A DNA stretch of 64,000 nt from Spinacia oleracea (Eukaryota; Streptophyta; Magnoliopsida; Caryophyllales; Amaranthaceae): NCBI RefSeq assembly GCF_020520425.1, contig NC_079491.1:38471027-38535026 (forward strand), in the 5' to 3' direction. Each line of letters opens with the position of its first letter. Position 1 is the stretch's first letter. The notes beneath the pieces were generated by a model. The model saw only the letters and a list, made by a program, of their open reading frames with translations, did no database searches and was not told the DNA's origin. A program made the position numbers and the translations under genes. This document shows positions 6,098 through 63,813 of the stretch, one piece after another.

Positions 6098-6420
6098 GGA
6101 AACGATGATATTACCGGAAACGGAAATATGGATCGTATCGGAAATATAAATATTATCCAAGTCGTAGATGTTGCCGGAAACGGAAACATGGTACGTATCG
6201 GAAAATATTATCGGAAATGGAAATATTACCAGAATCGGAAATATTGCCGGAAACGGAAATATTGTCAGAATCGGAAATATTACCGGAATCGGAAAATAAT
6301 TCCGGAAACGGAAATATTAAATATTTGTTCGAAACGGAAATTAATTCCGGAATCGGAAATGTTAAATATTGTTCGTATCGGAAATGAATTCCGGAATCGG
6401 AAATTTAATCGGAAGCGTAT
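6098..6420. repeat. Short-period minisatellite in copia A LTR
   Basis: Repeated imperfect units of roughly 16-18 bp of the form CCGGAAACGGAAATATT or CCGGAATCGGAAATATT, with variants. The array is irregular and interrupted. The open frame across it is rich in N, R, K and Y and is a by-product of the repeat, not a gene. Confidence 0.8.
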
Positions 6421-6844
6421 CGTACGAATAAGCATCGGACGAGGCCTGCCGGACGAGGGCCCAGCACGAAGCCAGGCCATCGCCCAGCAAGCCAAGCGCG
6501 CCACACAAACAGCCACGCTAGGCCCAGCGCAAGGCCAGGCCCAGCAGGCCGTGGCAGCGCGCACAGCGCGCGCAGCGCGCGCGGGTGCTTGCGTGGGCTT
6601 GTGGCTCGCGCAGGCCTCGCTGCGTGGGCTGCTGCTCGCACGCACGCATGGGCGGCCCATCGTGGCTGCCGTGTGTGTGTGCGTAAGTGTTTGTGTTCGT
6701 GCACGTTTCCTAAAACGTGCAGAGTTCGGTTAATGATTAAATTCCTAATTCTATTTGATAAATTAATTAAATTAGAGTTCTTGTAGGATTCTAGGTTTAA
6801 TCAATTTGTATCTGAATAGGATTCCAATTCCCTTTCCATACCCC

Positions 6845-8072: not shown

Positions 8073-8496
8073 TTCTTACCCCCTTAGAAAAAGTTTCGTC
8101 CTCGAAACTTGAAAATTAGATTTTAAAAATGTTTGTTGAAAATTGAAAACCCTCGAATAAAAGTATGATGTTTTATTTTAAAACCAAGATCTCAAAATTT
8201 TATTTCAATCTCGACAATGTCTAGCCTTCATTCCGCCATCATCTTTTAGGACTCCGCTTCAACTCAAGACCTAGAATCGAAGAGTAAAGAATGCAAAAGG
8301 GGAAAAATTATATATTGATCCTAAATCGTCATTAGGATCAATTACATTTCGCCATCGTCTTTCGTATCTCCACTTGATTTCATATAATAGGATCGAGGAG
8401 CAAAGAACATAAAAGGGGCAAACTTGTTAGCATAGACTAGGCTCCTATTTTACTTTGCGAGATCCTGTTTGAAAATATTTTCCACCAAAAATAGTA

Positions 8497-9799
8497 CTCC
8501 CTCCATTCCTTTTTGTTGTACCCATAAGGAATGTTGGGGGTATTTTAAGAAAACTGAATCTTGGGTTGTATTGGGATATGGGTAATGATTGGGTGTAAGA
8601 ATAATGATTGTGTGTAAGAAAAAGAATAAAGTAAAGAGAGAGAAAGTATTAAATTAATTGGGGAAAAAGTAGATATTTATTAAAGTATTGAATAAATTGA
8701 GTTACAATTTCTGTCACATGGACAAACCCAGAAAATTCAAACCAAAAAATCGACAAAAAATCAACCAAAAATTCGGAAAAATTCAACCCAAGATTCGACC
8801 AAATATAACCAAAAAATTCGACCAAGATCAAGGCAAAAAATCAACCAAATCAACTCAAAAATTCGACAAGAAATTCGACCAAAATCAACCCAAAAAATTC
8901 AAACAAAAATCAACCCAGAAAATCGATAAAAATCAACCCAAAAATTCGACCACAATCAACCCAAAAAAATAACAAAATTCAACCCAAAATTCGACCAATA
9001 TCAACGAAAATAAATCGACAAAAATCAACCAAAAAACCATACCAAAATCAACCCAAAATTTCAACAAAAAATAACCCAGAAATTCGTAAAAAAATCGACA
9101 AACATCAACCTAAAAAATTCGAAATAAGGCAAAAATAAATTCAAACCAACGTGATCTCAATATCACGATTTTGAGGATTTAGAGGCCAAATTCGACCATG
9201 AAAACTCTAGATCTAGAGTTTTCATGGTCGAATTTCACCATCTAAAGCCATAATACGCATTCTACAGCTTTTTCTGGCGGGTGGTGGTGGCGGAGGTGTG
9301 GTGGTGGTGGCGATCTAAAATTTCACCTCCAGATCTTAAGAACAGAGATATTGTGGAGGAGAGAGAATCTTAGAGTTTTAAGAAATCAGAGATTTTAGAG
9401 GAGAGAGAGAGAGAAAAACGTGAGAGCAAGTATGGAAAATGAAGAACAATTTGGGGTTCTTGAGAGTTGCAGAGGTTTTGGAGGAGAGAGAGATAGAGCA
9501 AAATGAGAGGAGGAAGGAGAGAAATGAAGAGAGAGAGAGAAATGAATTTTGTCATGAATTCATGATAGGGACGGTTCAAATGGGTGGGGAAATGGGGAAG
9601 ATTTAAGAATAAAATAAGAAAAGTGGTGAAATTTAGGTGTGAATAAGAGTAGAATCTTAAGGTTTTTTGGTAAATAGTGGGGAATCTTAGGGTAAATTGG
9701 TAAAAAAACTATGGCCAAAAATAGTAAAGATTCAGTAGGGGAACAACAAAAAGAAACGCCAAAAAAGGAAATGGGAACAACAAAAAGGAATGGAGGGAG
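8497..9799. mobile_element. Stowaway-like element, 1303 bp, in element B
   Basis: The ends are inverted copies (CTCCCTCCATTCCTTTTTG and continuing, about 28 bp with one mismatch), flanked by TA on both sides. Element F holds the empty site at about 61372, where the same flanking words are joined across a single TA. The element is far longer than a usual Stowaway MITE. It contains a G-poor array (8700-9130) of AAAAATCAACC and AAAATTCGAC words, a 48-bp perfect palindrome (9188-9235) and no transposase frame. Confidence 0.88.
9188..9235. repeat. 48-bp perfect palindrome
   Basis: The two 24-bp arms are exact inverted copies with no spacer, centred between 9211 and 9212 at CTCTAGA|TCTAGAG. It lies in the right third of the Stowaway-like element, just right of the G-poor array. 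Confidence 0.95.
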
Positions 9800-11674
9800 T
9801 AGTTTTTAACGAAAAATTATAATTCTGAAAATATATGTATATATAATGAAAATAAATATTTATCTATCAATTGCAATACTCCAATAGTTGTAAAAGTTAT
9901 TTATTATAATAATAATAATCTCGTACTCTGAGCTCGGGAGAACTTCCATTGGAGACGGCTTCCATGTATAACCATTAGTTATTATCAACACAATCATGCC
10001 AGCGTAAACATAATCCATAAAGCATATCATAAAGAAATAATTCTTAATTGAAACGTGCACAATTAACATAAGCATAATATTCATATACTAGTGATGGTAA
10101 CACATCTTAGTTTGAGACTCAATTAGAGCATATCGCTTCCAAAATTTTCATCATTAATTAACCTTATTCATACAACATCGTGATTCGTAAATCATATCGT
10201 TTTTAGGCGAATAATATTTCGTTTCCATTTGCTATTGGCTCCTTTGCTGCAGGAATCTTGTCGTTGGCTTTCTTTATTCGATACGTTTTGATTTCGAACC
10301 CCGATCTTTTCTTCTACGTTGAATAACTTCGTCGACTATGTTCGTTGTAGGGGTTCCATTCCAATCACGTGGCTAGAAATATATCGTTAGACATACGACT
10401 TCGTTACTTATCCTTAATATTTTAAATCAATGAATCTCGTATTATGCAGATAACGCTAAGCCATCAAGTGTGCCTTTATTTAGAAACAATCTAGCTCATA
10501 GAAAACTCAGTTCAGACTACCTGGTCCTATAGACATGTCATTTTGTCGATTCTCTACTCTCAACTCCATTGTATTCCTCAATCATTCATAATCCTTTTCG
10601 AATTTCATAACATTCATTGATATCATCAACCTGATGGACAGAATTCTCGATAACCTATTTCAATACTTTATATGCAACCTCAATTCCATGTTCTCGCCAT
10701 AAATCGTACTTTTCCTCAGAACATTTTTGCAAAACCTTACATTCTCTAGTTCAACTTCCTTTATGGAGATTATCAAGCATCCTTTTAGATAAACACACAA
10801 AAATAATCCCTATTAAAGACGCGGAAAGGTAAACCAAGAATACCATCAACCTCACTGACATACTAATTCCTGATTACTTGTTTTGGTATAATTCTCAGAA
10901 CTTCATGTGTACATTCAATTTTATCTTTTCACCATAAATCATATTCTTTCATAACTTTTAAAAGTTCTAGCTTAGTTTCCTTAACATATATGAATACACA
11001 CTTAGGTACCTACAACCACAAAACAATTATTATGAAGGGTGCGGGAAATTAACTCATAAATCAATTTCAACTTGAATGCTCTAAACCCTGAATAATCTTA
11101 ATTTAATTGGTGATTCTCCACTTATAAAAATACAAACTCATGCTCTTTCGGTACTCTATCCTTTAACCTTATTGACAGACTAATTCTTGATAGCTTATTT
11201 TGGTAAAATCCTCAGGAACTTATTCATGGGTCAACTCAAATGGGTCATTTATTATAACTCATGTTGGGTTCATAAATTTTCTGTATAACTTCTTAGCTTC
11301 CTTACTCAATCATTCTAGATATTAGACTTTAGTACTTATAAACATCAAAATATTCATCGGAAAGGTAACCCAAGAATCACTTTTGTTCATAACTTTAATA
11401 CTTTGAAATTCGAATAATCTTAACTTAATTAGTGATCACCCACAACCTTATGCTCACTTGGTACTCCTAACGTTTATACCATCCTTAAAGATAAAAATTC
11501 CTCAAAACCATTCATATCCACAAAATCTTTGAGTTCGCACCGTGCTTAACTTTAACTTCTTCTAAAATATAATGCTTAAACTTTGCCTGGTCTATCTAGG
11601 GTAGAAAACTCATAACATGACATGTGATGATAAGCATAAAATCAAAGGAAGTTCGATTCTAAAGCGAGAGAGAG

Positions 11675-12232
11675 CTAAATCAAAATAATATCAACGTTGG
11701 CGTCATCTTGTCCTTTATCATGTAATCTCTTACGTATGTTGACGGGCGTGATGGATTTAGCATTGTTGTTGTTTCGTTCATGATTGGTCGAGGTTGTTGT
11801 TCCGGTATTCGTTGGAGGTGGTTTAGGACAATCTTTAACGAAATAATCTTTTCCTTGACATAAATAACAAGTATTCATTTTTTGCACGATATTCGCTTCC
11901 ATTCTTTAGAGCATGTCGAAAGTTTCGAGTAGTTGATCCATATGATTGATCTAGTCTTTTAAATTCCATCGAATTGGCTTGCGATCATAGATTGGTGGAT
12001 TCGAAGGTGAAAACTTCTTAAATAGTGACGCTTTTCCGTTCGTATTAGTAACTTTCGTTTGCCGAGATCTTTGAATAATTCAGTTGACAACGTACGTGCA
12101 GTTTCTTAATCGTTCCATCATCTCCTTGGGGTCTTCAATAGGTTGGTCGTCATAGAAATCATCATAGGAAACATCATTGTGGGAGACGTCATTGTGAATG
12201 TTGCGCTTTGATGTGAGCTTCGTTCGTGGCAT
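11675..12232 (-). pseudogene. Gag remnant of element B (start plus CCHC-like knuckle)
   Basis: On the minus strand an ATG at 12232 opens MPRTKLTSKRNIH, an acidic stretch (SYDDFYDD) and KEMMERL, then breaks at a stop. Further down a frame reads FSPSNPPIYDRKPIRW, which resembles the start of a gypsy Gag core, and then CYLCQGKDYFVKDC, a CX2CX4HX4C knuckle with Tyr in place of His. The usual long Gag core between these is missing. The same start is found in element F (63622-63813), so the shortening is shared by the family and not an accident of this copy. Confidence 0.65.
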
Positions 12233-12471
12233 CGTTGGTAAGTTCGATAATCGATATTTCGCATAACATATTCAATCAAGAAAACATCAATAACATAAGA
12301 AATGAATCCCTTTTATCCCGTGCGTTCCTACGCTCACACTCATTTCATTTTAACTTGACCTGATTTTAACATATTCTTTTTAACTTATTCCTTAAAATTC
12401 TTTGCTTAAAGCCTAATGAATTCTATTTCGTGCGAAACCCGTAAGGTTTAGCTCTTATGGTCCAGAACCTT

Positions 12472-12487
12472 TGCTCTGAATACCAAA
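12472..12487 (-). other. Primer-binding site of element B
   Basis: Read on the minus strand, TTTGGTATTCAGAGC follows the LTR end at 12489. It matches the initiator Met tRNA site used by most plant gypsy and copia elements apart from one extra T, which may reduce priming in this copy. Confidence 0.65.
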
Positions 12488-12488
12488 C

Positions 12489-15364
12489 TGTAACGCCCCG
12501 ACCTCTAAATCACTTATTAAAGCATAATAAGCAGCAGAATTAACCTAATTTGGTCGGGACATTACCTGCCGTAATTCCGTCTTGGAAATTACAAGGCAAC
12601 ATCATACATAAGCCATAAAAACCTCCAATTTAATATAATAATCCTTTATATTCTCAAAATAAAAGTACATAACTTACTAAAAGTCTTTAATTAAACTATT
12701 ATAACTTTAAGCATAAACTAGGTGAATTTTATTAAAGTGAAATTCCTCGCCTCTACTCGTTTCCATCGATCCCCGCAGTACCTAAAATGGAAAACAAAAC
12801 GGTGAGCCGAAGACTCAGTAACGACTACCCTAGCAACGTAAATTCATTTCAACTCATTTTATTTAATAACACAGGGAGAACAGAATAAGTAAAACATTTA
12901 ATAAAACATCATATTCAATTCATTCATAATCTTTTAATGAAAACATCATTCATAAACTTTTAATTAACATGCTAGTTGTCGGCAAGTACGAACCGTGAAG
13001 GAATTCTCCACTGGGCCTGGGCCCTGAGCCTGGGCTCATCATCGTAACATGGGCCTGGGCCCTGAGCCTGGGCTCATAAACCATGGGAGCCTGGGCTCGT
13101 AATCCATGGGTGGACAGGTGTCCGTGGTGCATGCATGACCGGTAGATAGGAAGATGGTAGTTTATATACCGCCAGACAAACCAGGTCTTTCACTTTCATT
13201 TTATCATGTTTTATGTATTTTTACTAAGCCTTGGCTTGTATTTCAGTTCGAAATAACATAACTCATTTAGCTCATAAAACATCATTTTGATCCTGGGATC
13301 AATAAACATATTATTTCTTTCAAAGCATTGCATAAACATAATTTTATGTGAAAACTCAATCAAATCATATTATAATAAACAATTCAAACAAATCATATTT
13401 CATCCCACAATCCATAAAACACATCAAAACATTTAATTCATAAATTCAATCATAACGTCATAATTTCATAAATCATATTTATAAGGGGATTGCGGGTACT
13501 AGCAATAGCCGTTACCTCAATTCCATGATTGCTAGGCCTTTTCCTTGGTTCGTTCGTCCTGAGCTCCTAGTTCGATTTCTTTCAAAGTATCAAATTTTTG
13601 AATTAATATTAAATCGACAAACAATCTAAAATCGATATTTTATAAATATTAAGTTTATAAATAATGAATTTATAAATAACGAATTTTAATTAAAGACATA
13701 ATTTCATAATTTAACGAAAATATTATTAAACGAAATTTCAATCGAAATATTTATATATATTCCATAAATCGATTTTCATGAAAATAATATTTAAATTTCA
13801 CTTTGTTAAATAAGGTAGTAATTAGTAGAATCGATATTCGATAATTAAACCTGAAAAATAATAACAATTTAATTAGTAAATATTTATACCATAAAAATTT
13901 TAAAACATAAAAATTAATAATTAGAAAAATCTGAAATTGACTCTTTAGTTTCCAACTTATCCAAAAGCCCAAATTGAAATGGCCCAACTCTATTATAGGT
14001 TTAAGGAAAACCAAAGTTTCAAAAGGAAACTTGGTTTGGTTTTCTGGAAAGAAAGGCGTCGAACAGGGGAGGGGGTGCTCGAGACAGAAGGGCAAGAAGA
14101 GGAGGAGAGGAGAGGAGGGAGGGCGGTTGAGCTGGGCGGCGCAGCCACGCAAACCCGCGCCAAAGGCGAAGGTGGTGGTGATTGTTTGCGGCGGCGCGAG
14201 GAGAAAGGGGAACGAGTTCGTGAACAGGGGAGGCACGAAGGGGAGGAGAGAGATGGGGGAGGAATAAGGTGGCTGGGCTGGGCGGCGCATCACCGCGAAC
14301 CGCGCCTGGAGGCGACGGTGGTGAACGGTGGTTTGCGGCGACGGAGTTGTGAGAGGAGGGTGGTGAGTGTGGGAAACAGAGAGGGAAAACAGGGGAATTT
14401 GTGGTCGTAACTTGAGGCAGTTCTGGGCGGAGGGAGGGAAGCTCGCCGGGGATTTGAGGCGGAGGTTGGTTGATAGAGTGATGGGGTGGCTGGAGGTGGT
14501 GGTGTGAGATGGTGGTGGTGTGCTGGCGGGGTCGGGAAAGGGAGAGAGGCAGGGGAGAGAGGCAGGGGAGCGACGAGGAGAAGGGGAGGGAGGACAACGA
14601 GGGTACAATGGTGGTGCTGAGATGGTGGAGGGGATGTTGATTGGTGGTGGTTTCAGTGGCAGCAGCTACTGAGGGTGGTGGTGGTTCGACAGAGAAGAGA
14701 ATGGGAGGGATGATTGAAATTGTATTTTGTTTTTTTTGTTGTTGAAATCCCATCTCAATTTTCTGGTTTTTGAAGACATGTAGAATGAAGAAGAAGCTGT
14801 AGTACTTGGAGCCCAAGGAAATGAACTTGGACTGAATTAGGGAGAAAGAGGAGTCAAGAAAGTAAGAAAATTTTCTGCTCATTGACTTGGTTGACACGTG
14901 AAAGAGGAGTAGAAGAGAGTTGTGTATTTTGGCTTTGAGTGTGCATGAGCATTTTCATAATTTTTAGAATAGGTAAAATTTTAGATTTTAGTTGTTATTT
15001 TAAGAAACTACTAAAAATAGAAATGTTTAGCTAAATTAATTCTTTATATAAAAAAAATATATCGTTAACGAAAAATAAATTTAGTTTCCGAATAAAAATA
15101 AGAACGTTAAATAATTACTTTAGTTTCCGAATAAAATAAATTTAGAAATCCGAAAATAATTAAAATTTAAAAAGTTCGTTAAGCTCGTAAATATGAAAAT
15201 TAAATTATAAACTGAAAAATAAATCGTGTAGCAATATTAAAAATTCAAGTGAAATAAAACTTTGTTAATTAAAATAAAGTTCGAATTTAGGATTTAAAAC
15301 GATTTAAGCTAAATAAAAATAATTAAGCATAATTAATCGAGTTTTAAAAATTCGGGGTATTACA
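12489..15364 (-). repeat. 5' LTR of element B (2876 bp)
   Basis: In + orientation it starts TGTAACGCCCCGAC and ends GGGGTATTACA, so it has TG/CA ends and imperfect terminal inverted repeats. It contains a palindrome cluster (13012-13124), a purine-rich stretch on the + strand (14050-14720) that opens long proline-rich frames on the opposite strand, and an AT-rich 3' part. The base after it, GCTAT, is the likely 5-bp target duplication on this side; the partner is hidden by the truncation of the other LTR. Confidence 0.88.
13012..13124. repeat. Palindrome cluster in the LTR of element B
   Basis: GGGCCTGGGCCC (twice), GAGCCTGGGCTC (three times) and GGACAGGTGTCC follow each other, separated by short spacers such as ATCATCGTAACAT. 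The position within the LTR (about 520-640 bp from its + strand start) corresponds to that of the 23-bp array in element F (about 555-785 bp). Confidence 0.85.
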
Positions 15365-36279: not shown

Positions 36280-36359
36280 TCTTCATATATGTGTTTGATT
36301 CATAAAATTAATGCAACAAATAATCAAATCAACAACCACTTCCTCACTAAATCAATCAA

Positions 36360-36790
36360 TGTTAAAAACTGTATTCATGATCAAATCAAACGCAGAAAAC
36401 TTTGTAGCTCTACTGCAGTATAACAGACTGACAGAGAGAGAGAGATATTATTAGAATTATGAAATCGATTACAGGCTAAGAAGATTATGAGAGTTAGCCC
36501 TATTACAAGTTGCATAACTAACTATATATACTCCTGTGTTGGTGTGCTGTCACAACCAATCATTATGCAGGAAATAATACTCAGCCAATCACAAGGCTTT
36601 AACAATTATGGGAAATAATACAGCTGTCATATAGCTGACAGTGTAACAGAAATAATACAGCTGTCATATAGCTGACAGTGTAACAGAAAACGGTTACTTG
36701 GGTAGCAATCCTCTGTGGGCAAGTCCAGCATTGTAATGCTGATCCAATGTATGCTCCACTGTGTTGTCAACTATTGCAGTATCACCAACA
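36360..36790 (-). repeat. 3' LTR of copia E
   Basis: TGTTAAAAACTG to CACCAACA. It holds two adjacent 37-bp direct repeats (about 36614-36687), each with CTGTCA-TATAGC-TGACAG, a small hairpin. The last part of the polymerase frame and its stop codon (36694) lie inside this LTR. Confidence 0.96.
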
Positions 36791-38832
36791 CCCCCCCTCA
36801 AGCTAGGTGTGGTAGGAGTAACTCCTAGCTTGGATAGTAGATCATGATACTGAGGTGAAGGTAGTGCTTTGGTAAACACATCAGCTAACTGAGATTTGGT
36901 AGGCAAGTAAGTGAGCTGAATCAGACCTTCAAGTACCTTATCCCTAGTGAAATGACAATCTATCTCAATGTGTTTTGTCCTTTCATGGAATACAGGATTT
37001 TTAGCTATGTAAATAGCTGATTGGTTATCACAATGCAAAGTGACTGGTTTTAACTTATTTACACCCATTTCTTCAAGTAACCTGACAAGCCAAGTAACTT
37101 CTGAAGCTGCAGCTGCCATTGCCCTATATTCTGCTTCTGAAGAACTCTTTGAAATAGTCCCTTGCTTCTTTGATTTCCAGGAAACAGGAGAATTTCCCAA
37201 CAAAAGAATGTATCCTGTTATGGACCTTCTAGTATTGGGACAAGCAGCCCAATCACTATCTGAGAAAGCCTGCAGTGTTAAGCAATCTGAAGCTTGCAGC
37301 AAAATGCCTTGACCTTCAGTGTGTGCAACATATCTGAGCACATGATGCAAAGCTTTGACATGTGGTACTCTAGGTTGATGCATGAACTGACTGAGTAATT
37401 GAACAGCATAGCATAAATCTGGCCTTGTGTGTGTGAGAAAGTTCAGTTTGCCCACCAATGTTCTATATTGATCTGGTTGATCATAAAGTTGTCCCTCATC
37501 TGTAAATAATTTAGTGTTAATGGGAAGAGGAGTAGCAGCTGATCTTTTAACATCAAAACCACAGTCAGCTAAAAGAGATTTGGTGAACTTCTTTTGTGTC
37601 AATATCACCCCATTCACCAAATAACCAACTTCAATTCCTAGGAAGTAATGCATCACACCAAGATCCTTGATACTGAAAACAGTATCCATGTGTTTCTTTA
37701 GAGCAGTAATAGTGGGGAGATGATTTCCAGTAAGGAGGATATCATCCACATAGACTGCAGCCAAAGTAATGTGCACATGATCCTTCTTGATGAACAAAGA
37801 GTAGTCGTTTTTTGATTGAACAAACCCCTGTAACTGCAGCTCCCCATGAAGTTTAGCAAACCATTGCCTGGATGCCTGTTTTAGGCCATAAAGTGATTTT
37901 CTGAGTTTGCAAACATGATTGTGAGGATTGGGAATTCCTTCTGGCATTTTCATATAAACTTCCTCATGTAAATCACCATGTAGGAAAGCATTATTGACAT
38001 CAAGCTGATAGATTGTCCACTTCATGCTAGCAGCCAAAGCAACAATGCACCTAACTGTAGCCATTTTCACCACAGGAGAAAAGGTTTCCTCAAAATCAAT
38101 GCCATATTTCTGTGTGTATCCCTGAGCTACTAATCTAGCCTTGCATCTTTCCAAAGAACCATCAGCTTTCAATTTTACCTTAAAAACCCATTTGCACCCA
38201 ATGGCCTTTTTGCCAACTGGTAAAGTAACAACATCCCAAGTGTGATTGTGAAGAAGTGCCTCAATTTCCTTTTCCATAGCTTTAATCCAGTCAGGAGATA
38301 AAGATGCCTCTTTATAATTTCTGGGTTCAGTGAGAGCTTCCAGCTTACTAATGAGGGCTTGATGATGAATTGGCATACAAGTGTAAGAGACCAAATTACA
38401 CCAATGCTGAGAAGAATGACAATGATAATCTTTGAGATATGTGGGGGGTTTGTGAGCTCTAGTTGACTTTCTGAGACCTTGGTCTGATAGGTCAAGAATG
38501 AGATCAGCTTCAACAGTAGGAGAGGAAGAAGCATGAGTAGAAGAAAGAGAAGGAGAATGTGTAGAAGAAGAGGGAGTAACAGAGGGAGAAGAAAGAGGTG
38601 TAGAAAGAGGTGTAGAATGTAAAGAAGAGAATGGAGAAGAAATAGATGTATCAGGAGATTGAGAAGGAGAGGAAAGAAAAGGTAAAACTAGATTGGGATC
38701 AGGAAGAAAAGGTGTGTGGATGGGAAGAAAAATGTAAGGTGGGAAATCTGTAAGAGGAGTATGAGATGAATAATCAGTAACCGAATGGTGAAAGGGAAAA
38801 TGAGTTTCATGGAATGACATCTCTGGAAACAC
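36694..38832 (-). CDS. Reverse transcriptase-RNase H part of copia E, 712 aa
   Basis: It opens in a frame overlapping the gag-integrase frame and passes a low-complexity Ser/Pro/Thr linker (about residues 60-130). RT starts near ALLHNHTWDVV, with KWVFKVKLKADGSLERCKAR, DVNNAFLHGDL, KSLYGLKQASRQWF and the catalytic YVDDILLTGN. RNase H follows, with FSDSDWAACPNTRRSITGY, KSSSEAEYRAMA, LHCDNQSAIYIAKNP and HIEIDCHF. The C-terminus is encoded across the polypurine tract (SLRGGVGDT) and for about 32 codons inside the 3' LTR. No internal stop is seen. Without the upstream frame it has no start of its own in a normal copia context. Confidence 0.92.
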   Translation of the reverse strand: MFPEMSFHETHFPFHHSVTDYSSHTPLTDFPPYIFLPIHTPFLPDPNLVLPFLSSPSQSPDTSISSPFSSLHSTPLSTPLSSPSVTPSSSTHSPSLSSTHASSSPTVEADLILDLSDQGLRKSTRAHKPPTYLKDYHCHSSQHWCNLVSYTCMPIHHQALISKLEALTEPRNYKEASLSPDWIKAMEKEIEALLHNHTWDVVTLPVGKKAIGCKWVFKVKLKADGSLERCKARLVAQGYTQKYGIDFEETFSPVVKMATVRCIVALAASMKWTIYQLDVNNAFLHGDLHEEVYMKMPEGIPNPHNHVCKLRKSLYGLKQASRQWFAKLHGELQLQGFVQSKNDYSLFIKKDHVHITLAAVYVDDILLTGNHLPTITALKKHMDTVFSIKDLGVMHYFLGIEVGYLVNGVILTQKKFTKSLLADCGFDVKRSAATPLPINTKLFTDEGQLYDQPDQYRTLVGKLNFLTHTRPDLCYAVQLLSQFMHQPRVPHVKALHHVLRYVAHTEGQGILLQASDCLTLQAFSDSDWAACPNTRRSITGYILLLGNSPVSWKSKKQGTISKSSSEAEYRAMAAAASEVTWLVRLLEEMGVNKLKPVTLHCDNQSAIYIAKNPVFHERTKHIEIDCHFTRDKVLEGLIQLTYLPTKSQLADVFTKALPSPQYHDLLSKLGVTPTTPSLRGGVGDTAIVDNTVEHTLDQHYNAGLAHRGLLPK

Positions 38833-41278
38833 TGATGATGTTAGTGGCAGGATCTAGAACTTTGTAACCCTTTTGTGTGGGAGAATAACCAATGAAAACA
38901 CAAGATTTTGCTCTTGCATCAAACTTGGATCTGTGTACTTTGGAGGTAGAAACAAAACACAAACAGCCAAAAACCCTTAAATGTTGATATAAAGGTTTGT
39001 CTCCAAATAACTTCTCATAAGGTGTCTGATTCCCAATACTCCTTAAAGGCATTCTATTGACTAAATAAGTAGCACATAGAATGCATTCCCCCCAAAATTT
39101 GATAGGCAACTTGGATTGAAAATGAAGAGCTCTAGCAGTTTCAAGTAAATGTCTATGCTTCCTTTCTACCACCCCATTTTGTTGGGGGGTTCCACTACAA
39201 CTTGTTTGATGCACAATTCCCTTGTTTTGGAAAAGTAATTTCATGTCACCTTCACACAATTCTAGTGCATTATCTGATCTTACACACAAGACTTTTGAAT
39301 CAAACTGTGTTTCCACCATTTTCAGAAAAGAGACAAGTACAGGTACAGCATCAGTTTTGGATTTTAAAAGATATGTCCAAGTAGTTCTTGTAAAATCCTC
39401 CACTATGGTAAGAAACATAGTACAACCATTGTGTGTTTTATTCTTGTAAGGCCCCCAAGTGTCCAAATGAATCATTTGAAACATCTTAGTGGTCTTAATA
39501 CTACTAATGGGAAAGGAATTTCTAGTTTGCTTAGCTGCAGGGCAAATCTGACATATACTATCACCAAGACCAGTAGAAACTAAAGAATCAACAACAAATT
39601 TCATCTTGGAATAAGGCATGTGTCCAAGTCTCAAGTGCCAAACCTTGGAATCTGTGCATGTTGTTGCTGCTAGACATGTAGTGGAAGAAGTTGCAGACTG
39701 ATGTTGTTCTGAATCCACACTGTAAAGACCTGACTTCACACTACCAAGAACCTGTTTCTCTTTCATTAAATGGCCCTGAAGATAACATTTATCAGCAGTA
39801 AATGACACAGTGCATTGATGATCAGTACATAGTTTGTTCACAGATAACAAATTGTACTGAAAATCTGGAACATGCAGAACATCTGTCAGCTGTATGTTTT
39901 CATTTATGGTGACAGTTCCCTTATGAAGAACACTTACTTTCCTTCCATCTGGTATTGTTATGCACTCTCCGGTTCCAATAACAGGTTCATATGAATCAAA
40001 CATGCTTAGACTAGCACACATATGATCTGAAGCTCCACTATCTAACAACCAACTTGAATGAGAGCAAGTAAGAAAGCAATAATTGTTACCTGCCATGAAT
40101 GCATGGCCTGAACTGTCCCCTTCCTCAAACTGAGTATCTGTGACAGCCACTTTCTCAACCTGTTGCTTGCTCAGTAGATTTAGCAATTGTGTACATTGCT
40201 CTGGTGTGAAAAAGTTTGCCTGTGGCTGTTGTGGTTGTTGCTCTCTGTCATTAGGAAAATATTGTTGTTGATATTCAGTCATATCATCATAGTAAGCTTC
40301 ATCAGTATAGACAGCAGAAGCAGCTCTTTTGTCACTCTTGAACCCTGTGAAACCTGGTGGAAAACCATGCAATTTGAAACATCTCTCTGTGCTGTGTCCA
40401 TTAACCTTACAGTGATCACAGTAGTAGCTGGATGGAGGTCTCTTATAGCCAGTTGCTTTGTTCCCTCCAGTTGATTGATAATTGTTCCTAGGATAGCCTG
40501 ATTGCTGCGCTCTGTAATTATTTCTCCCTTGGTAATCATTATACCTTCTTCTGTCTGCTGCAAAAGCATGACTCTCATGCTGTACAGGAGCACTAATTTC
40601 CTTCTGTCTTTCTTCTTGTGCCAGCATCCTATATGCATGTGATAGTGTTGGGAGTGGTTGCATCATGAGTAAGTTGCCTCTAGCTGCAGCTAAATGCTCT
40701 CCTAGTTTCATAAGAAACTGCATCAACCTCTGTTCTTGTTGCATCTTGAAAATCTTTTGTGTCAAATTGCAAGTGCATAAGTTGCAAGTACAAGTTGGAA
40801 GAGGATTTGCTGCACTGATCTTGTCCCATATTGACTTGATCTCAGTAAAGAATTCAGCTACATTCTGTGAACCTTGTGTGATGTCTGATGCTTGCCTTTT
40901 AAGTGCATAAAGTTGTGGACCAGAAACAAATCCAAATCTATCCTCTAGGTCAAGCCATATCTCTCTTGCAGTATTGAAATACAACACACTTTTAGATATC
41001 ACCGAATCCAGGTTAAACAATATCCATGAAATCATCATGTCATTACATCTCAACCATGCTTCATATGTTATATCAGTAGGATCAGGTTTTGGCAATCTAC
41101 CATTCACAAAGCCTAGTTTATTTTTAGAAGACATAGAGATCATCATACTCCTTCTCCAATCTCCATATCCTTCTCCCATGAACTTCACTGAAACCAACTG
41201 ATTTGCAGTGTTATCTGTAGGATGCAGATAAAAAGGACTAGCAGGATCTTGATTAGGTGGTAAGTTCTGTGTTGTCAT
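38807..41278 (-). CDS. Gag-protease-integrase polyprotein of copia E, 823 aa
   Basis: It begins MTTQNLPPNQDPASPFYLHP at the ATG 390 bp inside the 5' LTR. Residues about 25-230 are a plant copia Gag (UBN2-like, WRRSMMISMSSKNKLGFVNG). The zinc knuckle CDHCKVNGHSTERC is at 287-300, the aspartic protease core LLDSGASDHMC at about 411-421, and the integrase HHCC at about 548-579 (H548, H553, C576, C579). The integrase catalytic triad is D606, D669 and E705, a D,D(35)E spacing. The frame stops shortly after SVSRDV, where copia polyproteins normally continue into RT, so a frameshift near 38815-38830 splits this frame from the next. Whether this is a mutation or a programmed shift is not decided; a mutation is likelier because copia elements usually use one frame. 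Confidence 0.93.
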   Translation of the reverse strand: MTTQNLPPNQDPASPFYLHPTDNTANQLVSVKFMGEGYGDWRRSMMISMSSKNKLGFVNGRLPKPDPTDITYEAWLRCNDMMISWILFNLDSVISKSVLYFNTAREIWLDLEDRFGFVSGPQLYALKRQASDITQGSQNVAEFFTEIKSIWDKISAANPLPTCTCNLCTCNLTQKIFKMQQEQRLMQFLMKLGEHLAAARGNLLMMQPLPTLSHAYRMLAQEERQKEISAPVQHESHAFAADRRRYNDYQGRNNYRAQQSGYPRNNYQSTGGNKATGYKRPPSSYYCDHCKVNGHSTERCFKLHGFPPGFTGFKSDKRAASAVYTDEAYYDDMTEYQQQYFPNDREQQPQQPQANFFTPEQCTQLLNLLSKQQVEKVAVTDTQFEEGDSSGHAFMAGNNYCFLTCSHSSWLLDSGASDHMCASLSMFDSYEPVIGTGECITIPDGRKVSVLHKGTVTINENIQLTDVLHVPDFQYNLLSVNKLCTDHQCTVSFTADKCYLQGHLMKEKQVLGSVKSGLYSVDSEQHQSATSSTTCLAATTCTDSKVWHLRLGHMPYSKMKFVVDSLVSTGLGDSICQICPAAKQTRNSFPISSIKTTKMFQMIHLDTWGPYKNKTHNGCTMFLTIVEDFTRTTWTYLLKSKTDAVPVLVSFLKMVETQFDSKVLCVRSDNALELCEGDMKLLFQNKGIVHQTSCSGTPQQNGVVERKHRHLLETARALHFQSKLPIKFWGECILCATYLVNRMPLRSIGNQTPYEKLFGDKPLYQHLRVFGCLCFVSTSKVHRSKFDARAKSCVFIGYSPTQKGYKVLDPATNIISVSRDVIP

Positions 41279-41681
41279 TGGTAAGATTCTATGTTTTTTT
41301 TTGTTTTAGGAATGATTTGAATGTATGAGGAAAAGAAAATCAAAAGAGATTTTTATGTGTTAATCTGATAAACTAGATCAACAATTTTCAGGTTAATAGT
41401 TTGAGCTAAAATCAAGCAAAAAATTGATCCAACAGTTGATCGAACAGTTTCAGGAAGAGAAACAGGTAGAACTATAGTCTAATCACTGATGCAAACACAG
41501 AATCAATCAACTATTGCACTATTCAGAAAGAATCAAGCAGAAACAGGAAATATAGTTGCAGATAATCGAAATCAGATGATCATACCCTCAAGAACAAGAT
41601 ACTGAGTTTCTGGAATCAATTGTATCTACGAATTCAGGAGTTGTCACTGATTCAGGATCTTGAATCACCGCTCTGATACCA

Positions 41682-42112
41682 TGTTAAAAACTGTATTCAT
41701 GATCAAATCAAACGCAGAAAACTTTGTAGCTCTACTGCAGTATAACAGACTGACAGAGAGAGAGAGATATTATTAGAATTATGAAATCGATTACAGGCTA
41801 AGAAGATTATGAGAGTTAGCCCTATTACAAGCTGCATAACTAACTATATATACTCCTGTGTTGGTGTGCTGTCACAACCAATCATTATGCAGGAAATAAT
41901 ACTCAGCCAATCACAAGGCTTTAACAATTATGGGAAATAATACAGCTGTCATATAGCTGACAGTGTAACAGAAATAATACAGCTGTCATATAGCTGACAG
42001 TGTAACAGAAAACGGTTACTTGGGTAGCAATCCTCTGTGGGCAAGTCCAGCATTGTAATGCTGATCCAATGTATGCTCCACTGTGTTGTCAACTATTGCA
42101 GTATCACCAACA
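41682..42112 (-). repeat. 5' LTR of copia E
   Basis: Same length as the other LTR, with the single difference at 41832. The minus-strand promoter for the element must lie here; no clear TATA box was picked out. Confidence 0.96.
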
Positions 42113-47916: not shown

Positions 47917-48053
47917 CTCTTTCCAGATACAGGAACATCACAATCAATAATCCATAAAGCAAACGAGAGAAAGAAAAAGATCAATAGTTCCTCTAAAAAA
48001 GTTCCTCAAAACTTACGAATTTCAATCAAAATTTCACGAAATTGAAATCAGAA

Positions 48054-50162
48054 ATGGCAAGCAGAAAGGAAGAGAAGGCTGAGGGGGCTGCGAGGTATGC
48101 GGCGGACGAGTTGAAGACTGCAAGGGAGGAGAAGGAGATGCACAAGCAGCAACACCCGGCGCAGCAGTTTGACAAAGAATATTATAGTGGTACCACTACT
48201 GAAGAAACTCATCACCAGCAACAGAACAAGCCCGGGATAATCTCCTCTGTGTTTGGCGCGATCGGAAGCACGTATGAGCACGCCAAGGAAGCTGTCGCGG
48301 GCAAGACCCATGACGCGGCGGAGAAGACTAAGGAGAGTGCTGCTTATACGTCTGCGAAGATGAAGGAGAGTGAGGAGGCTGCTGCTCTGCGTGCTCGTGA
48401 GGATGCGGAGTGGGCGAGGGAGGGGAGGGATAACACGGCGGAGAGCATGAGGCAAACTAAGGATGCTGCTGTTGGAAAGACCAAAGATGCTGCAGGTTAT
48501 GTGGCCGATAAGGCAAAGGGGGCGAAAGATGCGACGGTAGACACGGCCGTACAAGCGAAGGATGTTACCATGGAGAAGACTAAAGATGCTGCGGGTTATG
48601 TGGGTGATAAGGCTAAAGGGGCGAAGGATGTGACAGTAGACACGGCGGTACAGGCGAAGGATGTTACCATGGAGAAGACTAAGGATGCTGCGGGTTATGT
48701 GGGTGATAAGGCTAAAGGGGCGAAGGATATGACTGTAGGGAAAACGAAGGATGCTGCGGGTTATGTTGCTGACAAGTCCAAGGCGGCAAAGGATGTTACA
48801 GTAGATAAAACTAAGGATGCTGCAGGTTATGTGGCTGATTCCACCAAGGCGGCCAAAGATACTGCCGCTGAGAAGGCAAGACAAGCTGCTGATAAGACGG
48901 GTGAGATCAAAGACAGGACAATGGAGACCGCTGGGGAGTACAAGGATTACACTGCTGATAAGGCTGTGGAAGGGAAGGATGTGACTGTTGGTAAGTTGAC
49001 TGAATTGAAGGATTCTGCAGCGGATGTTGCAAAGAGGGCAATGGGTTTCTTGTCATTGAAGAAAGATGAGACTAAGGAGAAGGCGGGTGAAACTATTGAG
49101 GCAGCTGCAGATAAGACTAAGGAGACAGCAGAGGCGGCCAAAGCCAAGGCCAGAGATGCTGCTGAGTCTGCTAAGCAAACCGCGGATGCCACCAAGAACA
49201 AGGCGTGGCAGAAGAAAGAGGAGGCCAAGGTGAGAAATCGGTTCTCCTCTCTCTAATTCATACCTTGGTTTTTTTTCTTACTACTTATCAATAGTCAATA
49301 CTCATAGTGTGTTAATTATGTATATGTTGTGTGTATGTTTTAATTTTGTACTTGTATTATATTAGATGTTGTAGTAGTATCTATTCAACGTTAAATAAAT
49401 TTTGAAGATGGTTTACATCAATAAGATTAGTGATATTTTCTGAATTGCATTCTTGATATTGGAATTTGAACATGGGGTTAATTTTGAAATATTTATGTAC
49501 AAGATGTAAGTGGGGATAAAATCTTAATTGATCGATATTGATGATGTTGAGTTAGTTGTTGGTAGTGCTTACTGATTGCAAAAATTTAAAAGACCTCTGT
49601 TGCATTCTTGATTTGGATTTTATGAATATAGTAATAAAGAAATGGTATGAACGTACAGGATGTGTACAAGGGTACGGAGGAAGAAGGAAGGAGGAAAATG
49701 GAAGAAATGAGGATTGAAAAGCTTAGGGAGAAAGGGTATGATGTTGAAGATGAAGCTTCTGAGAGAGCCAAAGCTGACAGGGAGGCCGCTGCATTAAGGT
49801 AGTATTGTAATCTTAATTAATTAGTAATAAAATGAATACTTGGTATACATTGAAAGTATTTGGTTGTGAATTGGAACAGGGGAGATGCAGCAAAGAACAA
49901 TATATTGGGGGCGATAGGCGGTTTAACAGATGCTATGAAGAGCAAGCTTGCAATGCCGAGTGATGTAGCAGAGGAGAAGAGAAAGAATCAAGGGAAGGTC
50001 GGTGAAGAAAAGATAGTGTCGGTGACTGTGGAGGAGTCTAGACCTGGTGCTGCAGCAGATCTTCTGAAGGCAGCTGACCAGATAACTGGGCAAGGTTATA
50101 CCCCTAATGATGTTGGAAAGATGGGGGAGGAAGGGACCGGCTTCCCTGCCCGCCGCCGTTAA
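48054..50162 (+). CDS. Group 3 LEA protein (LEA_4 repeats), 3 exons, 532 aa
   Basis: Exons are 48054-49229, 49659-49798 and 49880-50162, with GT-AG introns of phases 0 and 2. The start is the ATG at 48054 (MASRKEEKAEGAA); an in-frame TTG further upstream is not credible. The protein is very hydrophilic, rich in Lys, Ala, Asp, Glu and Thr, with no signal peptide or membrane segment. From about residue 80 it is built of 11-residue repeats of the LEA_4 kind (TKDAAGYVADK, AKDVTVD), which form amphipathic helices on drying. A nearly exact 33-residue super-repeat and then 22-residue copies fill the centre. The C-terminal part (GDAAKNNILGAIGGLTDAMK, RPGAAADLLKAADQITGQ) is the conserved tail of seed LEA proteins related to ECP63/SBP65 and D-29. 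Expected role is membrane and protein protection in desiccating seeds. The promoter carries ABREs. Confidence 0.92.
48474..48836 (+). repeat. 99-bp and 66-bp coding tandem repeats in the LEA gene
   Basis: Each 99-bp unit encodes three 11-residue blocks: KTKDAAGYVGD, KAKGAKDVTVD and TAVQAKDVTME. Two to three units are nearly identical at the nucleotide level, followed by 66-bp units that lack the third block. Unequal crossing-over within the exon is the simple explanation. Confidence 0.88.
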
Positions 50163-57659: not shown

Positions 57660-57757
<98 letters not shown>

Positions 57758-58027: not shown

Positions 58028-60946
58028 TGTAACGCCCCGACCTCTAAATCACTTATTAAAGCATAACTAGCAGCGGAATTAACCTAATTCGGTCGGGACA
58101 TTACCCGCCGTAATTCCCTCTTAGGAATTACAAGGCAACCATCATATTAATTACTATTAAACTCCACAATTAGCATAATCATCCTTCTCAATTCCTTAAT
58201 AAAAGTACGAAACTTAATCAAGAATCTTTACTTAAACTTATTACAACTTAACATTAACTTAGGTGAACTTGGTAATATTGAAATCCTCGCCACTACTCGT
58301 TTCCGTGGTCCCCAGCAGTACCTAAAACGGAAAACAAAACGGTGAGCCGAAGACTCAGTAACAAGTTACCCTAGCATCGTAACATCATTTCAATTCATTT
58401 TATTTAATAAACAAGGAGAATAGAATATAGTAAAACATTTAATAAATCAATATTTCAGAAGCATCATTTCAAAAACATAATTTCAGAAATATCATTCCAG
58501 GAACATTAATTCAGGAACGTCATTTCATTACTCTTTTTCCTTTTAACAGTATTTATTCTGGTCGTCATGACTTTACAGGAAAACATGGTAGGACGTCTCC
58601 TACGAACAGGGGAAGCCAGTGCTTCATAACAGGGGGAGTCAATGCTCCATAACAGGGGAAGCCAGTGCTTCATTTCAGGGGGAACCTTGGTTCCATATCA
58701 GGGGAAGCCAGTGCTTCTTATCAGGGGGAACCTTGGTTCCATATCAGGGGAAGCCAGTGCTTCTTATCAGGGGGAGCCTGGGCTCCATATCAGGGGAACT
58801 TGACCAGTTCTTACACTTTTATTTATCATGTTTACATTTCTTTTAATCGAACATTAATCAGGAAAATCTCAATCATTCAGGGTGGTTCAATAAACCATTA
58901 AATCTCGTTATTTCATAAAATCATTTCTTTCAGGAATAATAATAATTCATTAAATTAATACTTTGCATAAAGCTGCATTATCGTAAAACAATTCAATCAA
59001 ATCATACTTGTAATCCCGCAATTCACAAAACATCATTATAAAACATCAATCATTCATAACATCATTCATAAATACATTTCGAAGGGAATGCGGGTACTAG
59101 CAGTAACCGTTACCTCAATTCCACGATTTGCTAAGCCTTTTCGCTGGTTCGTTCTTCCTGAGCTCCGAGTTTGATTTCTTTCAAAGTATCAAATTATTGA
59201 ATTAGTATTAACTTGATATATAAATTTGAAAAATCAATATTTTATAAATCATAATTTTATAAGTAACGAATCTATAATTAACGAATTTTATAAAATATAA
59301 ATTTCGAATTTTAACGAAAATATTATTATTAATCGGACTTTCAATCAAAATATATTTATTTATTTCATAAATCGCTTTTCATGAATTTTATTTAATTTCA
59401 TTTTTAGTAAATAGAGTTAGTAATTTATTTCAGTAAAATCGGTAATTAAATCTGAAAAATAATAAAAAATTTATTAGTAAATAAATTAAAAGAAACAAAA
59501 TTCATTATAACATAAATATTGATTAATTGAAATCTGAAAATTCATAGTTGTCTTACCCAAAGCCCAAATAAAGATGGCCCAATTTAAGTTGGGTTTAGGA
59601 GAATAAATCAAGTTTCAAAATGAAACTTGATATTTGGTTTCCTGGAAAAGGAGGACACGGTCCAGAAAAAGGAAGCAGGGCACGAAGGAGGGAGAAGGAA
59701 AGAGAGGAGGGTGGCTGGCGGCACGGCGGTGCAGCCGACGTGGTTGGTGTATCACAAGAAGGGCGTCGAAGCGCAGCAGCACAATGGTGTTGTGTGGCGG
59801 TGGTTTGCGCGAAGAAGGAGGGGCTGGGCGCAGGTGAGGGAGGAAAGCAGGGGAGATGCGAGGAGGAAAGAGGGGAGGTGGTGATCGGGGTATGGGCGGC
59901 GCTGCGCAGCGCGGAACCGGCGCCCGAGAGGGGCGACGGTGGTGGTGGTTATTCCGCGGCGGCAAAACGACGGGAGAGAGGGAGAGAAATGCACGACTCA
60001 GGTCGAATAACAGGGGAGTTTGGGGGTGTTTTTGGGCGGTGGAAACGGCGGCTCGCCGGGAAGTATGGGCGGAGATTGATTTGAGGAGTGATAAGGTGGT
60101 GGTGGTGTGGTGGCGCAGCGAGGGAAAAAGATGAAATGGAGGTAGAGGAGGGCAGGGGAGTTGCGACAAGGAGGAGGAGAGCAGGGGCAGTGGGTGCGGT
60201 GTTGGTCGACGGTGGTTGGCGGTGAGGATGGGCAGTAGTGGTGGTGGAATACGGTGGTGGCAGTGGTTGATTTCAGTGGCTGATGGTGGTTGTTCGAATG
60301 AAGCAGGAAACAAAAGAAAGGGGAGTGATAATCAGTTTTGATAACTGATTTTGGTTTTTGGGTGAGGAACAAAATGGCAATTGTGTTTATAAAACTAAGA
60401 AGAGTGAAAGAGAAGGTTCAGCCCTTGGAGAGCAAGCAAATGAACCAAGACTGAATTGAGGGAAGGAGAGGAATGAAGAATTTTCTTCCATTCTTGCTTT
60501 GTACGTGGAGAGCAAAGAGAGAGAGATCCAAAAGAATTTTAGCTTTGTAGGGGCATTTTCGTAATTTCACTTAGTTAGGAAAAATTCTGAAATTTCTTTG
60601 CTATATTTAGGGATTGATATAAATAGGAATGTTTAATTAAAATCAGATTTTCAAATAATTTTTATAAAATATTGATAGCAATAAATTAAATTTTCGAATA
60701 AAATAAAAACGTTCCGAAATTATTAAAAATTCGAAATAAACAAGATTTAAAAAGGTAGTTTAAGCTCGTAAAAATTAAATTATAAAGTCTGAAAAATAAA
60801 TAAATCGTGTAACGATATTAAAAACTTAATCGCAATAAAACTTCGTTAATTAAAATAAAGTTTGAAATTAAGATTTAAAACGGTTTTAAGCTAAATAAAA
60901 ATAATTTAGCATAATTAATCAAGCTTTAAAAATTCGGGGTATTACA
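58028..60946 (-). repeat. 3' LTR of element F (2919 bp)
   Basis: It starts TGTAACGCCCCGAC and ends GGGGTATTACA in + orientation, as in element B. It carries a 23-bp hairpin array (58584-58813) and a purine-rich block (59640-60300) that opens proline-rich frames on the other strand. These frames have no recognisable domain and are not called genes. Confidence 0.88.
58584..58813. repeat. Array of ten 23-bp hairpin units in the LTR of element F
   Basis: Nine units begin CAGGGG; the first (58584) is the same length but begins CATGGT. Every unit contains a short perfect or nearly perfect stem: GTAGGA/TCCTAC, GAAGC/GCTTC (four times), GGAGT/GCTCC with a G-T pair, GGAAC/GTTCC (twice), GGAGC/GCTCC and GAACT/AGTTC. 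Most have loops of four bases. Stem sequences differ between units but pairing is kept. Confidence 0.9.
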
Positions 60947-63259
60947 TTCTTACCCCCTTAGAAAAAGTTTCGTCCTCGAAACTTGAAAATTAGATTTATA
61001 AAATATTTGTTGAAAGTTGAAAACGCTCGAATAAAAGTATGATGTTTTATTTTAAAACCAAGATCTCATAATTTAAATCCCGACAATGTCTAGCCTTCAT
61101 TCCGCCATCATCTTTTTAGGACTCCGCTTCAACTCGGGACCTAGAATCGAAGAGTAAAGAGTACAAAAGGGGCAAAATTTATATATTAATCCTTAATCGT
61201 CATTAAGGCCAATTACATTCCGCCATCATCTTTAGTATCTCCACTTTACTTCATAAAATAGGATCGAGGAGCAAAGAACATAAAAGGGGCAAACTTGTTA
61301 GCATAGACTACGCTCCCATGCATTTTACTTTGTGATATCTTGTTTGAAAATATTTTCTACCGAAAATAGTAACTTTTTAATGCAAAATTATAATTCTGAA
61401 AATATACGTATATGTAATGAAAATAATATTTATCTACCAATTTCAATAATCAAATAATTAGTAAAAGTCATTTATTATATCAATCTCGTACTCTGAGCTC
61501 AGGAGAACTTCCATCGGAGGCGGCTTCCATGTATAACAATTATACTATCAGTACAATCATATCAGCATAAGCATAATCCATATCATAGAGACATAATTCA
61601 TATGAAAATTTCAAATTCAACATAAGTGTAACATTCATAATCATTTGATCTAACACACGAGCATGGTTGACCATAACATAATCAATCATAGAAAACACAG
61701 TCATTCATACATCATATCGTTCATGGGCGAATAATTAGAGATATTTCGCTTTCATTTGCTATTGGGTTTCCCTACCGCAGGAATCTTGTCGTTGAATTGA
61801 CTTCCGTTATTCGATTCGTTTCGATTTCGATTTCCGATCTTTTCTTTTGCGTCACACAACTTGTCGACTACGTTCGTTGCGGGGGGGGGGGGGGGTTCGA
61901 GTCCATTCACGTGACAGGAAACTACATCATTAGACGTACGACTTCGTTACTTATCCTTAGTATTTTAAGTCGACAAACACTTGGGTTGTGGCGGTCAATT
62001 CTAAGCCATCACACGTGCCTTTATCAGAAACAACCTAGATTCCAGAAACTTAGTTCATACTACCTGGTTTTACAGACATGTCATTTTGTCGATTTCTTTT
62101 CTTAACTCCATTGCATTCCTCAATCATTCATAATTCTTTTCGAACTTCATAACATTCATTGATATTATCGACCTCATAGACAGACTAATTCTCGATAACT
62201 TATTTTGGTAAGATCCTTGAAACTTATATGCAAAACTCAATCTCATGCTTTCACCATAAATCATATTTTCCACATAACATTTTTGCAAACCTTACATTTC
62301 CTCGCTTAGCTTTCTTTATGGAGATTATCAGGCATCCTTTCAAAAACAATCCTATAAAGGATGAGGAAATGTAGACTAAAAACACCATCAACCTTACTGA
62401 CAGACTAATTCCTGATAACTTCCTCTGGTATAATCCTCATAACTCTATATGTGACCTAAATTTCATATTTTCACCATCAATCATGTTTGGTCTCGATCAC
62501 ATAATATTTTTGCATAACTTTTTTTAAGATTTCTAGCTTAGCTTCCTTAACATATCTGGAAATATACTTAGGTGCTTATAACCACAAAACAATCATTATG
62601 AAAGGTGCGGAATAGTAACTCAAAAATCAATTATACTCACACGCTTTAAACCGTATAACCTTGATTTAATCAGTGACTCGCCACTTAAAATACAAACTTA
62701 TGTTCTTTTGGTACCCTATCATTAAATCTTATCGACAGACTAATTCTTGATAGCTTATTTTGGTAAAATCCTCAAGAACTTATTCATGTGTCAACTCAAA
62801 TGGGTCATTTATCATAACTTATGTTAGGTTCATAACTTTTCTGTATAACTTCTTAGCTTCCTTAATAGAGGCATATCAATCGTTCCCTTGATAATAGACT
62901 TTAGTACTTATAAACATCAATGTATTCGTCATGACTAACACGGGGAGGTAACCCTAGAATCAATATCATTCATAACTTGAACACTTTAAACCCAAAATAA
63001 CCCCAACTTAATTAGTGATCCATCACTCATGAAATACATCCTTGGTTTCGTTTGGTACTATAATATTTATTCTATCCTTAAAGATTTCGTAACCATAAAA
63101 ATTCCTCAAAACAATTCATATCCACAAAATCTTTGAGTTCACACCGTGCTTAATTTAACTTCTTCCAAGGAAATGCTTAAACTTTGCCTAGTCTATCTAG
63201 GATAGAATACTCATAGCATGACATGTGACGATAAACATAAAATCAAGGAAAGTTCGATT
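60947..63259 (-). other. Internal region of element F, no recognisable pol
   Basis: Modules with a GACAGACTAATTCYTGATA word recur at about 62171, 62398 and 62733, each followed after about 30 bp by a WTCCTY-AACTY word and later by CTTAGCTTYCTT. A run of 15 G at 61881-61895 replaces four G in element B. No enzyme domain is visible on either strand. Confidence 0.6.
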
Positions 63260-63813
63260 CTAAAGCGAGAGAGAGCAAATCAAAATAATATCAGCGTTGG
63301 CGTTATCTTTGTCTATGTAATCTCTTACGTATGTTGACGGGCGTGATGGATTTAGCATTGTTGTTGTTTCGTTCATGATTGGTCGAGGTTGATGTTTCGG
63401 TATTCGTTGGAGGTAGTTTAGGACAATCTTTAACGAAATGATCTTTTCCTCGACATCGATAACAAGTATTCGTTTTAGCACGATATTCATTTCCATTCGT
63501 TAGAGCATTTCGAGAGTCTCGAGTAGTTGATCCATATGATTGACCTAGTCTTCAAATTCCATCGAATTGGCTTGCGATCATAGATTGGTGGATTCGAGGG
63601 TGAATAGTGACGCAATTTCATTTACATTAGTGACTTTCGTTTTCGAGAATCTTTGACCACTTCAGTTGATAACGTACTTGCAGTTCTTAATCGTTCCATC
63701 ATCTCCTTGGAGTCTACTATAGATTGTTCGTCATAGAAATCATCATAGGGAACATCATTGTGAGCGACGTTATCGTGAATGTTGCGCTTTATTGTGAGCT
63801 TCGTTCGTGGCAT
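63260..63813 (-). pseudogene. Gag remnant of element F
   Basis: The minus-strand ATG at 63813 opens MPRTKLTIKRNIH, an acidic YDDFYDE stretch and KEMMERL, as in element B, and ends at 63622. The frame at 63496-63260 matches the region around the zinc knuckle of element B, but shifted frames destroy the Cys pattern. The missing Gag core is missing here too. Confidence 0.65.

Follow-up and report, generated by a model that had tools for sequence, protein, structure and literature searches.

In spinach (Spinacia oleracea), the LTR of a retrotransposon carries an array of short hairpins whose two arms have changed together. The matched changes are real and occur across many genomic copies and in three LTR classes. 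This suggests that the element needs the folded shape of the array rather than its letters. The reading we favour from the sequence is that the pairing was selected while the elements were active, probably in the leader RNA. The starting point was a stretch of 64,000 nucleotides, called the window below, to which we added other copies from the genome.

The array occupies positions 58584-58813 and is read on the minus strand. The initial annotation described it as ten consecutive 23-bp units, each with a small stem-loop. The hairpins were confirmed, but the array turned out to consist of one leading hairpin (GTAGGA-CGTC-TCCTAC, 58588-58603, minus strand) followed by nine 23-bp units; these have five stem types and are partly arranged as 46-bp dimers. 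The nine units start with CAGGGG at 58607, 58630, 58653, 58676, 58699, 58722, 58745, 58768 and 58791, and their loops are CAGT, CAAT, CTTG, CTGG or TGACC. TRF detected a period of 23 (8.3 copies) and a period of 46 (4.2 copies, 90% match) over 58607-58798. Because part of the array is a duplication of the period-46 dimer, the ten units cannot be counted as independent stems. The stem type GGAGT/GCTCC (58630) has four Watson-Crick pairs plus one combination that reads T.G on the plus strand and A.C on the minus strand. The fold energy of the whole array was only moderately better than that of shuffled sequences, both as minus-strand RNA (z -2.64) and as plus-strand DNA (z -3.22), and the minimum-energy fold of the minus-strand RNA joins different units and does not keep every local hairpin. 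A search of Rfam gave nothing above threshold, the sub-threshold match being at 58446-58494 (E 0.35). Beside the array, 14-bp direct repeats (ATTTCAGAAACATC-like) lie at 58452-58527 on the minus strand, and by eye their copy number differs between loci.

The array lies in a minus-strand LTR with TG...CA termini (58028-60946), which we read as a 3' LTR with the interior at higher coordinates. A purine tract in the minus-strand sense directly adjoins its high end; by this position, AAGGGGGTAAGAA at 60947-60960 was assigned as the polypurine tract. A gag zinc-knuckle fragment of the same element was found at 63303-63551 on the minus strand (PF00098, E 3.9e-5), and the interior runs beyond the window end at 64000. 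Comparison of the window with itself matched this LTR to a second copy at 12489-15364 on the minus strand, the presumed 5' LTR of a class A element occupying 7217-15364. The class A copy has its own minus-strand hairpin cluster at 13012-13125 (GGGCC-TG-GGCCC, GAGCC-TG-GGCTC and GGACA-GG-TGTCC). Since there is no reading frame longer than 112 residues between its LTRs, this copy looks pol-less. TG...CA termini, a polypurine tract and a primer binding site are all present in the window copies, and we take the primer binding site of the class A copy to resemble initiator tRNA-Met. In one class C element, RVT_1, RNase H and Integrase_H2C2 follow each other in Gypsy order within a 2-kb piece. Thus, the hairpins are not confined to apparently pol-less copies but are also present in a class that bears pol. 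On the pol order of this one class C relative, and not of the window's own copies, the host element of the array is classified as a Ty3/Gypsy-type LTR retrotransposon. Its lineage, which we guess from the letters of the reverse transcriptase, is presumably Tekay/Del chromovirus. Tekay/Del, Ogre/Tat and Athila are given among the common Gypsy lineages of spinach in the accessible part of a repeat survey (PMC6337768), where the terms "palindrom-" and "hairpin" do not occur.

The window contains several other repeats. A Copia-type element at 36359-42112 has two 432-bp stretches that are 99.8% identical (presumed LTRs), with long open frames between them, and at each end a palindromic 37-bp repeat (CAGCTGTCATATAGCTGACAG) is present twice. 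At 48042-49256 lies a LEA-like gene of the host that contains tandem repeats of 99 bp and 66 bp. The closest relative of one host gene comes from Bienertia (62% identity), consistent with a host of the amaranth family. A long AT dinucleotide run is located near the flank of the array-bearing element at 57663-57757, next to a C run at 57170. Short hairpins and tandem repeats (CCGGAAACGGAAAT-like) are also clustered in a different repeat at 6128-6600, and a similar sequence is inserted within some fetched LTR copies (L011 and L019).

The 894-Mb genome was searched for further copies. With up to 3 mismatches, an anchor beside the array occurs at no fewer than 1717 places; at least 1069 places match one unit pattern exactly. 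Of the at least 1717 anchor places, the 100 listed belong to a single contig, and we fetched 91 of them; variant anchors added 36 others (6 places, and 30 of 43 places). The 132 regions cut comprise 63 of class A, 42 of class B (the type of the window's array), 19 of class C and 8 unclassified. A donor-side match was present in 114 of the 132 regions, and the other 18 were excluded from the counts. The acceptor-side motif had no match in the other collections, which contain viral contigs and genome contigs. Between classes, the flanks are alike (about 0.9-1.0), and the likeness of the middle is far lower, down to 0.05-0.5 for class B versus A or C. The class A hairpins are GGGCC-TG-GGCCC and GAGCC-TG-GGCTC. 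Those of class C are GTGGAA-CGTC-TTCCAC, ATGGAC-CGCT-GTCCAT, GGGCC-TT-GGCCC and GAGCC-TT-GGCTC. The leading hairpin of class B shares flanks and loop with the first of these class C hairpins, and two pairs are changed on both arms. Intermediate stems were also found: GGGC/GCCC replaces GGAC/GTCC in L136-L138 and L115, and GGAA/TTCC replaces GGGC/GCCC in L136. Outside the main cluster, at 13190-13480 and in class C loci, there are more palindromes that covary between classes (TTTCAGTTGAAA versus CTTCAGTTGAAG; GATCCTGGGATC).

The initial annotation expected that the arms would pair in other copies as well, and they do. Unpaired arms are far from being as frequent as paired ones: in the 36 class B arrays (35 fetched and the window's own), 1657 of 1710 stem cells were Watson-Crick. 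This scoring covered 342 of 345 units, as three units of other length were dropped. The remaining cells were 42 wobbles on the plus strand, 34 of which fall at one position of one stem type, 6 wobbles on the sense strand and 5 other combinations. In 58 loci of class A and 18 of the 19 of class C, 2893 cells were Watson-Crick versus 103 others (39 plus-strand wobbles, 31 sense-strand wobbles, 33 of the rest). Wobble is thus commoner on the plus strand in class B, mostly through one position, and nearly even in classes A and C, and the G-U counts favour neither strand clearly.

The hairpins could in principle be due to chance or to plain tandem duplication of a few of them, and the array is indeed partly a 46-bp duplication. 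The initial annotation argued that simple duplication would not give matched changes in two arms, and shuffles and simulations bore this out. With five stem types of the class B array, 24 of 25 pairs were formed, a number reached by 2 of 120 arm permutations; with eleven types across all classes, 54 of 55 pairs were formed, and none of 200,000 permutations reached this. In a structure-placed alignment of twelve hairpins from this array and the two related LTR classes, 59 of 59 cells were standard pairs, compared with 34-56% in slid-frame controls. All 5 pairs of these hairpins were changed on both sides, and 0 of 500 column shuffles were as high. A tree-based simulation with independent sites, which is our own simple model rather than R-scape, covered 15 hairpins. 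It gave a maximum of 65 Watson-Crick pairs versus 74 of 75 observed and a maximum covariation count of 145 versus 222; none of 4000 simulations reached the observed values. Thus, covariation across copies exceeds this null, and permutation, column shuffles, slid frames and simulation all exclude chance as the source of the joint change of the arms. In addition, classes A and C hold different hairpins at the matching place. Chance or duplication is therefore a refuted explanation, to which we assign almost no probability. A genome-wide search with both letters of one hairpin pair unspecified had 40 exact matches: 35 A-T, 3 G-C, 1 A.C and 1 G.T (Fisher p 0.0016, for copies that are related to each other). 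A pattern for altered letters of the leading hairpin found 3 places, each changed on one arm only; the design of this pattern missed class B.

The hairpins are concentrated in one part of the LTR. In 55 LTRs, with 1.8 kb of LTR examined, the middle segment contained 10.6 (A), 13.2 (B) and 8.1 (C) hairpins per kb versus 1.8, 1.5 and 1.9 in shuffled sequences. The U3 part had 2.2-2.3 versus 1.2-1.4 shuffled, and the other segments 0-0.8. In the hairpin core of classes A and C, shared variants were found in 8 of 300 columns versus 152 of 965 outside, where the control is AT-rich and may contain alignment noise; singleton rates were similar. Over the whole middle segment, stems had 5 shared variants versus 46 singletons, and the rest had 154 versus 239. 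Within the core, stems (2 of 100 columns) did not differ from spacers (6 of 200; p 0.72). Consequently, the comparison of shared variants and singletons does not isolate pairing, and we dropped it as a proof of pairing selection.

The LTR had initially been read as transcribed from the minus strand, with the array in the 3' half of the transcript, possibly as a structured leader. The minus-strand reading held, and the array lies downstream of a TATA-like sequence; its placement in a leader is by position. TATA-like sequences in the minus-strand sense are found at 59222-59292, and in 8 of the 14 class B LTRs the TATAAAA that lies at 59246 in the window precedes a donor-like site by 132-134 nt. 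On the minus strand, the order is TATA-like sequence, donor-like AG^GTAACG (the caret marks the junction), hairpin segment, and T-rich tract ending in AG^GT. The two splice-like sites delimit a putative leader intron of 792 bp at 58322-59113 (sense ...TTGAG^GTAACGG ... GTTTTGTTTTCCGTTTTAG^GTACTGC), and the class A copy has a corresponding putative intron at 12782-13515, also on the minus strand. A short minus-strand hairpin, TGAGTCTTCGGCTCA (58343-58357), which is part of the search anchor, is located just upstream of the T-rich tract in the sense direction. The donor-like site is present in at least 24 of 25 class A, 14 of 14 class B and 15 of 16 class C LTRs, and the acceptor-like AG^GT in 18 of 18 rows among those listed, a conservation that arises partly by construction, as donor-less copies were excluded and the acceptor side adjoins the search anchor. 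In the 16 class C LTRs, where the anchor does not cover the tract, the length of the T-rich tract varies and AG^GT is constant, which is a mark of a 3' splice site. GT-AG ends with a T-rich tract are thus kept in the three classes and point to a candidate spliceosomal intron. A genome search for copies of the spliced junction within 3 mismatches found none; the two matching places were both donor-site variants. The unspliced leader contains 47 ATGs within the LTR, and 7 are left when the segment is removed.

The matched changes could also be produced by mutation instead of selection, and the initial annotation named a copying process that makes palindromes as an alternative. Template switching within a hairpin during reverse transcription would copy a change in one arm to the other. 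Reverse transcription begins by copying the leader, so a local foldback is plausible. Several stems differ at two pairs together (GGGC/GCCC versus GGAA/TTCC in L136), as expected of a single templated event. To follow the arms after insertion, we used 22 presumed pairs of sister LTRs, matched by spacing, strand and class, with one LTR used twice. The length of the array differs in 4 of 10 class B pairs, by 46 bp (L012/L013), 23 bp (L015/L016), 92 bp (L060/L061) and 46 bp (L085/L086). L060/L061 show no substitution, as if the length had changed during reverse transcription or just after it. These length differences would also fit template switching. However, the 22 pairs differ at 87 of 15,172 sites, 18 of them in stems, and all 18 are one-armed: no both-arm change was observed, although only about 0.08 would be expected by chance and the changes are mostly post-insertion. 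Stems were not spared from substitution (18 of 2117 versus 69 of 13,055 elsewhere, p 0.09). Thus, pairing is not restored after insertion, and the process that keeps the two arms matched operates from one insertion to the next rather than on copies resident in the genome. The comparison bears on a copying process only for the stage after insertion; such a process may have acted during reverse transcription. The neighbouring LTR parts are not enriched in hairpins and shared variants are rare in the core, which also argues against template switching, and we consider it quite unlikely.

Another possibility is that the array acts as DNA, the dyad sites of the LTR binding dimeric factors or shaping chromatin. 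The nearest precedent is the palindromic arrays of Sirevirus LTRs. According to the parts of the sources consulted, these Ty1/Copia LTRs carry clustered palindromic motifs with a conserved CGG-CCG core upstream of the TATA box (PMC2829016), and in maize the motifs are linked to small RNAs and called cis-regulatory (PMC10760457, citing Bousios et al. 2016). In both systems, numerous short repeats with dyad symmetry cluster in a plant LTR, so cis-regulatory precedents of this kind favour an action as DNA, as do the G-U counts without a clear strand and the plus-strand DNA fold (z -3.22). Sirevirus is a Copia element with conserved core letters, whereas the array described here belongs to a Gypsy-type element, by the order in the class C relative, and its stems covary. 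The CGG-CCG core is absent from the five stem types of the class B array and from the listed class A and C hairpins. A binding site keeps its letters, whereas here the arms covary and the loops vary. Finally, the Sirevirus cluster is upstream of the TATA box, while our array is, by position, downstream of the TATA-like sequence. An action at the DNA level is therefore unlikely, though it deserves some weight.

The hairpins might instead act in RNA on splicing or translation: they could bring donor and acceptor together, regulate intron retention or help ribosomes past the ATGs. The position of the array between splice-like sites and the 47 ATGs of the unspliced leader are consistent with such a role. 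Leader structures of plant pararetroviruses are reportedly used in shunting, which offers a parallel. However, shunting uses a single long stem, and there is none such here. We regard a role of this kind as improbable.

Other known systems resemble the array in part. In murine leukaemia virus, as an example of retroviruses, packaging regions are located downstream of the splice donor, and their stem-loops are kept in unspliced RNA only. Retroviral packaging regions have few large stem-loops, whereas the LTR analysed here has many 5-6-bp modules. Among plant Gypsy elements, Ogre/Tat and Retand carry noncoding tandem repeats that are hypervariable and lie towards the 3' end of the interior; to our knowledge, these have not been described as covarying hairpins. 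In open-licence literature on hairpin arrays, packaging, introns and covariation in LTR elements, we found no covarying LTR hairpin array. In a paper on plant centromeric retrotransposons (PMC3059260), no mention of splicing or introns was found. The portion of the BARE report consulted describes two separate RNA pools, a spliced one that is translated and an unspliced one that is packaged, and also a parasitic subfamily with shared packaging signals (PMC3735527). Such a division between spliced and packaged RNA is thus on record for a plant LTR element. Unlike the element studied here, BARE is a Copia element with its intron in gag rather than in the LTR, and that portion reports no hairpin array.

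We propose that the array is a modular set of hairpins located where the LTR of a Ty3/Gypsy family is transcribed as leader, and that the form that folds is the unspliced leader RNA. In each module, base pairing would have been under selection during the active life of the element, so that stem and loop letters could drift while the arms changed together, and units could be lost or gained in steps of 23 or 46 bp. Such selection would account for the matched changes, the location and the decay after insertion. The location makes RNA of the unspliced leader the likeliest folded form, although the wobble counts give no confirmation of the strand. Since the array lies between donor-like and acceptor-like sites, only unspliced, genome-length RNA would keep it, an arrangement that would fit a signal by which Gag recognises genomic RNA, in packaging or dimerisation. 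This explanation as a whole is quite possible, although we stop slightly short of calling it probable. Packaging is its weakest step: selection of leader-RNA pairing for some purpose is likelier than packaging specifically, and packaging or dimerisation as the function of the array has modest odds. A bolder form of the proposal is that the putative LTR-borne leader intron is a modular packaging code of rapidly re-lettered but always paired hairpins, retained only by unspliced genomic RNA and common to pol-bearing and pol-less subfamilies. Pol-less elements would then be carried by the machinery of their pol-bearing relatives, and the hairpin letters would be free to diverge between subfamilies. 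We consider this form rather doubtful.

For plant Gypsy elements, little is known about packaging or the structure of the leader. The presence of the array in thousands of copies, in young LTR pairs and in several classes of one genome makes it a natural mutational scan, which allows sequence-based tests of pairing selection, strand and mechanism. It also provides a way into the question of how pol-less elements are recognised. In addition, the array shows that pairing, rather than letters, can be what maintains a palindromic array in an LTR.
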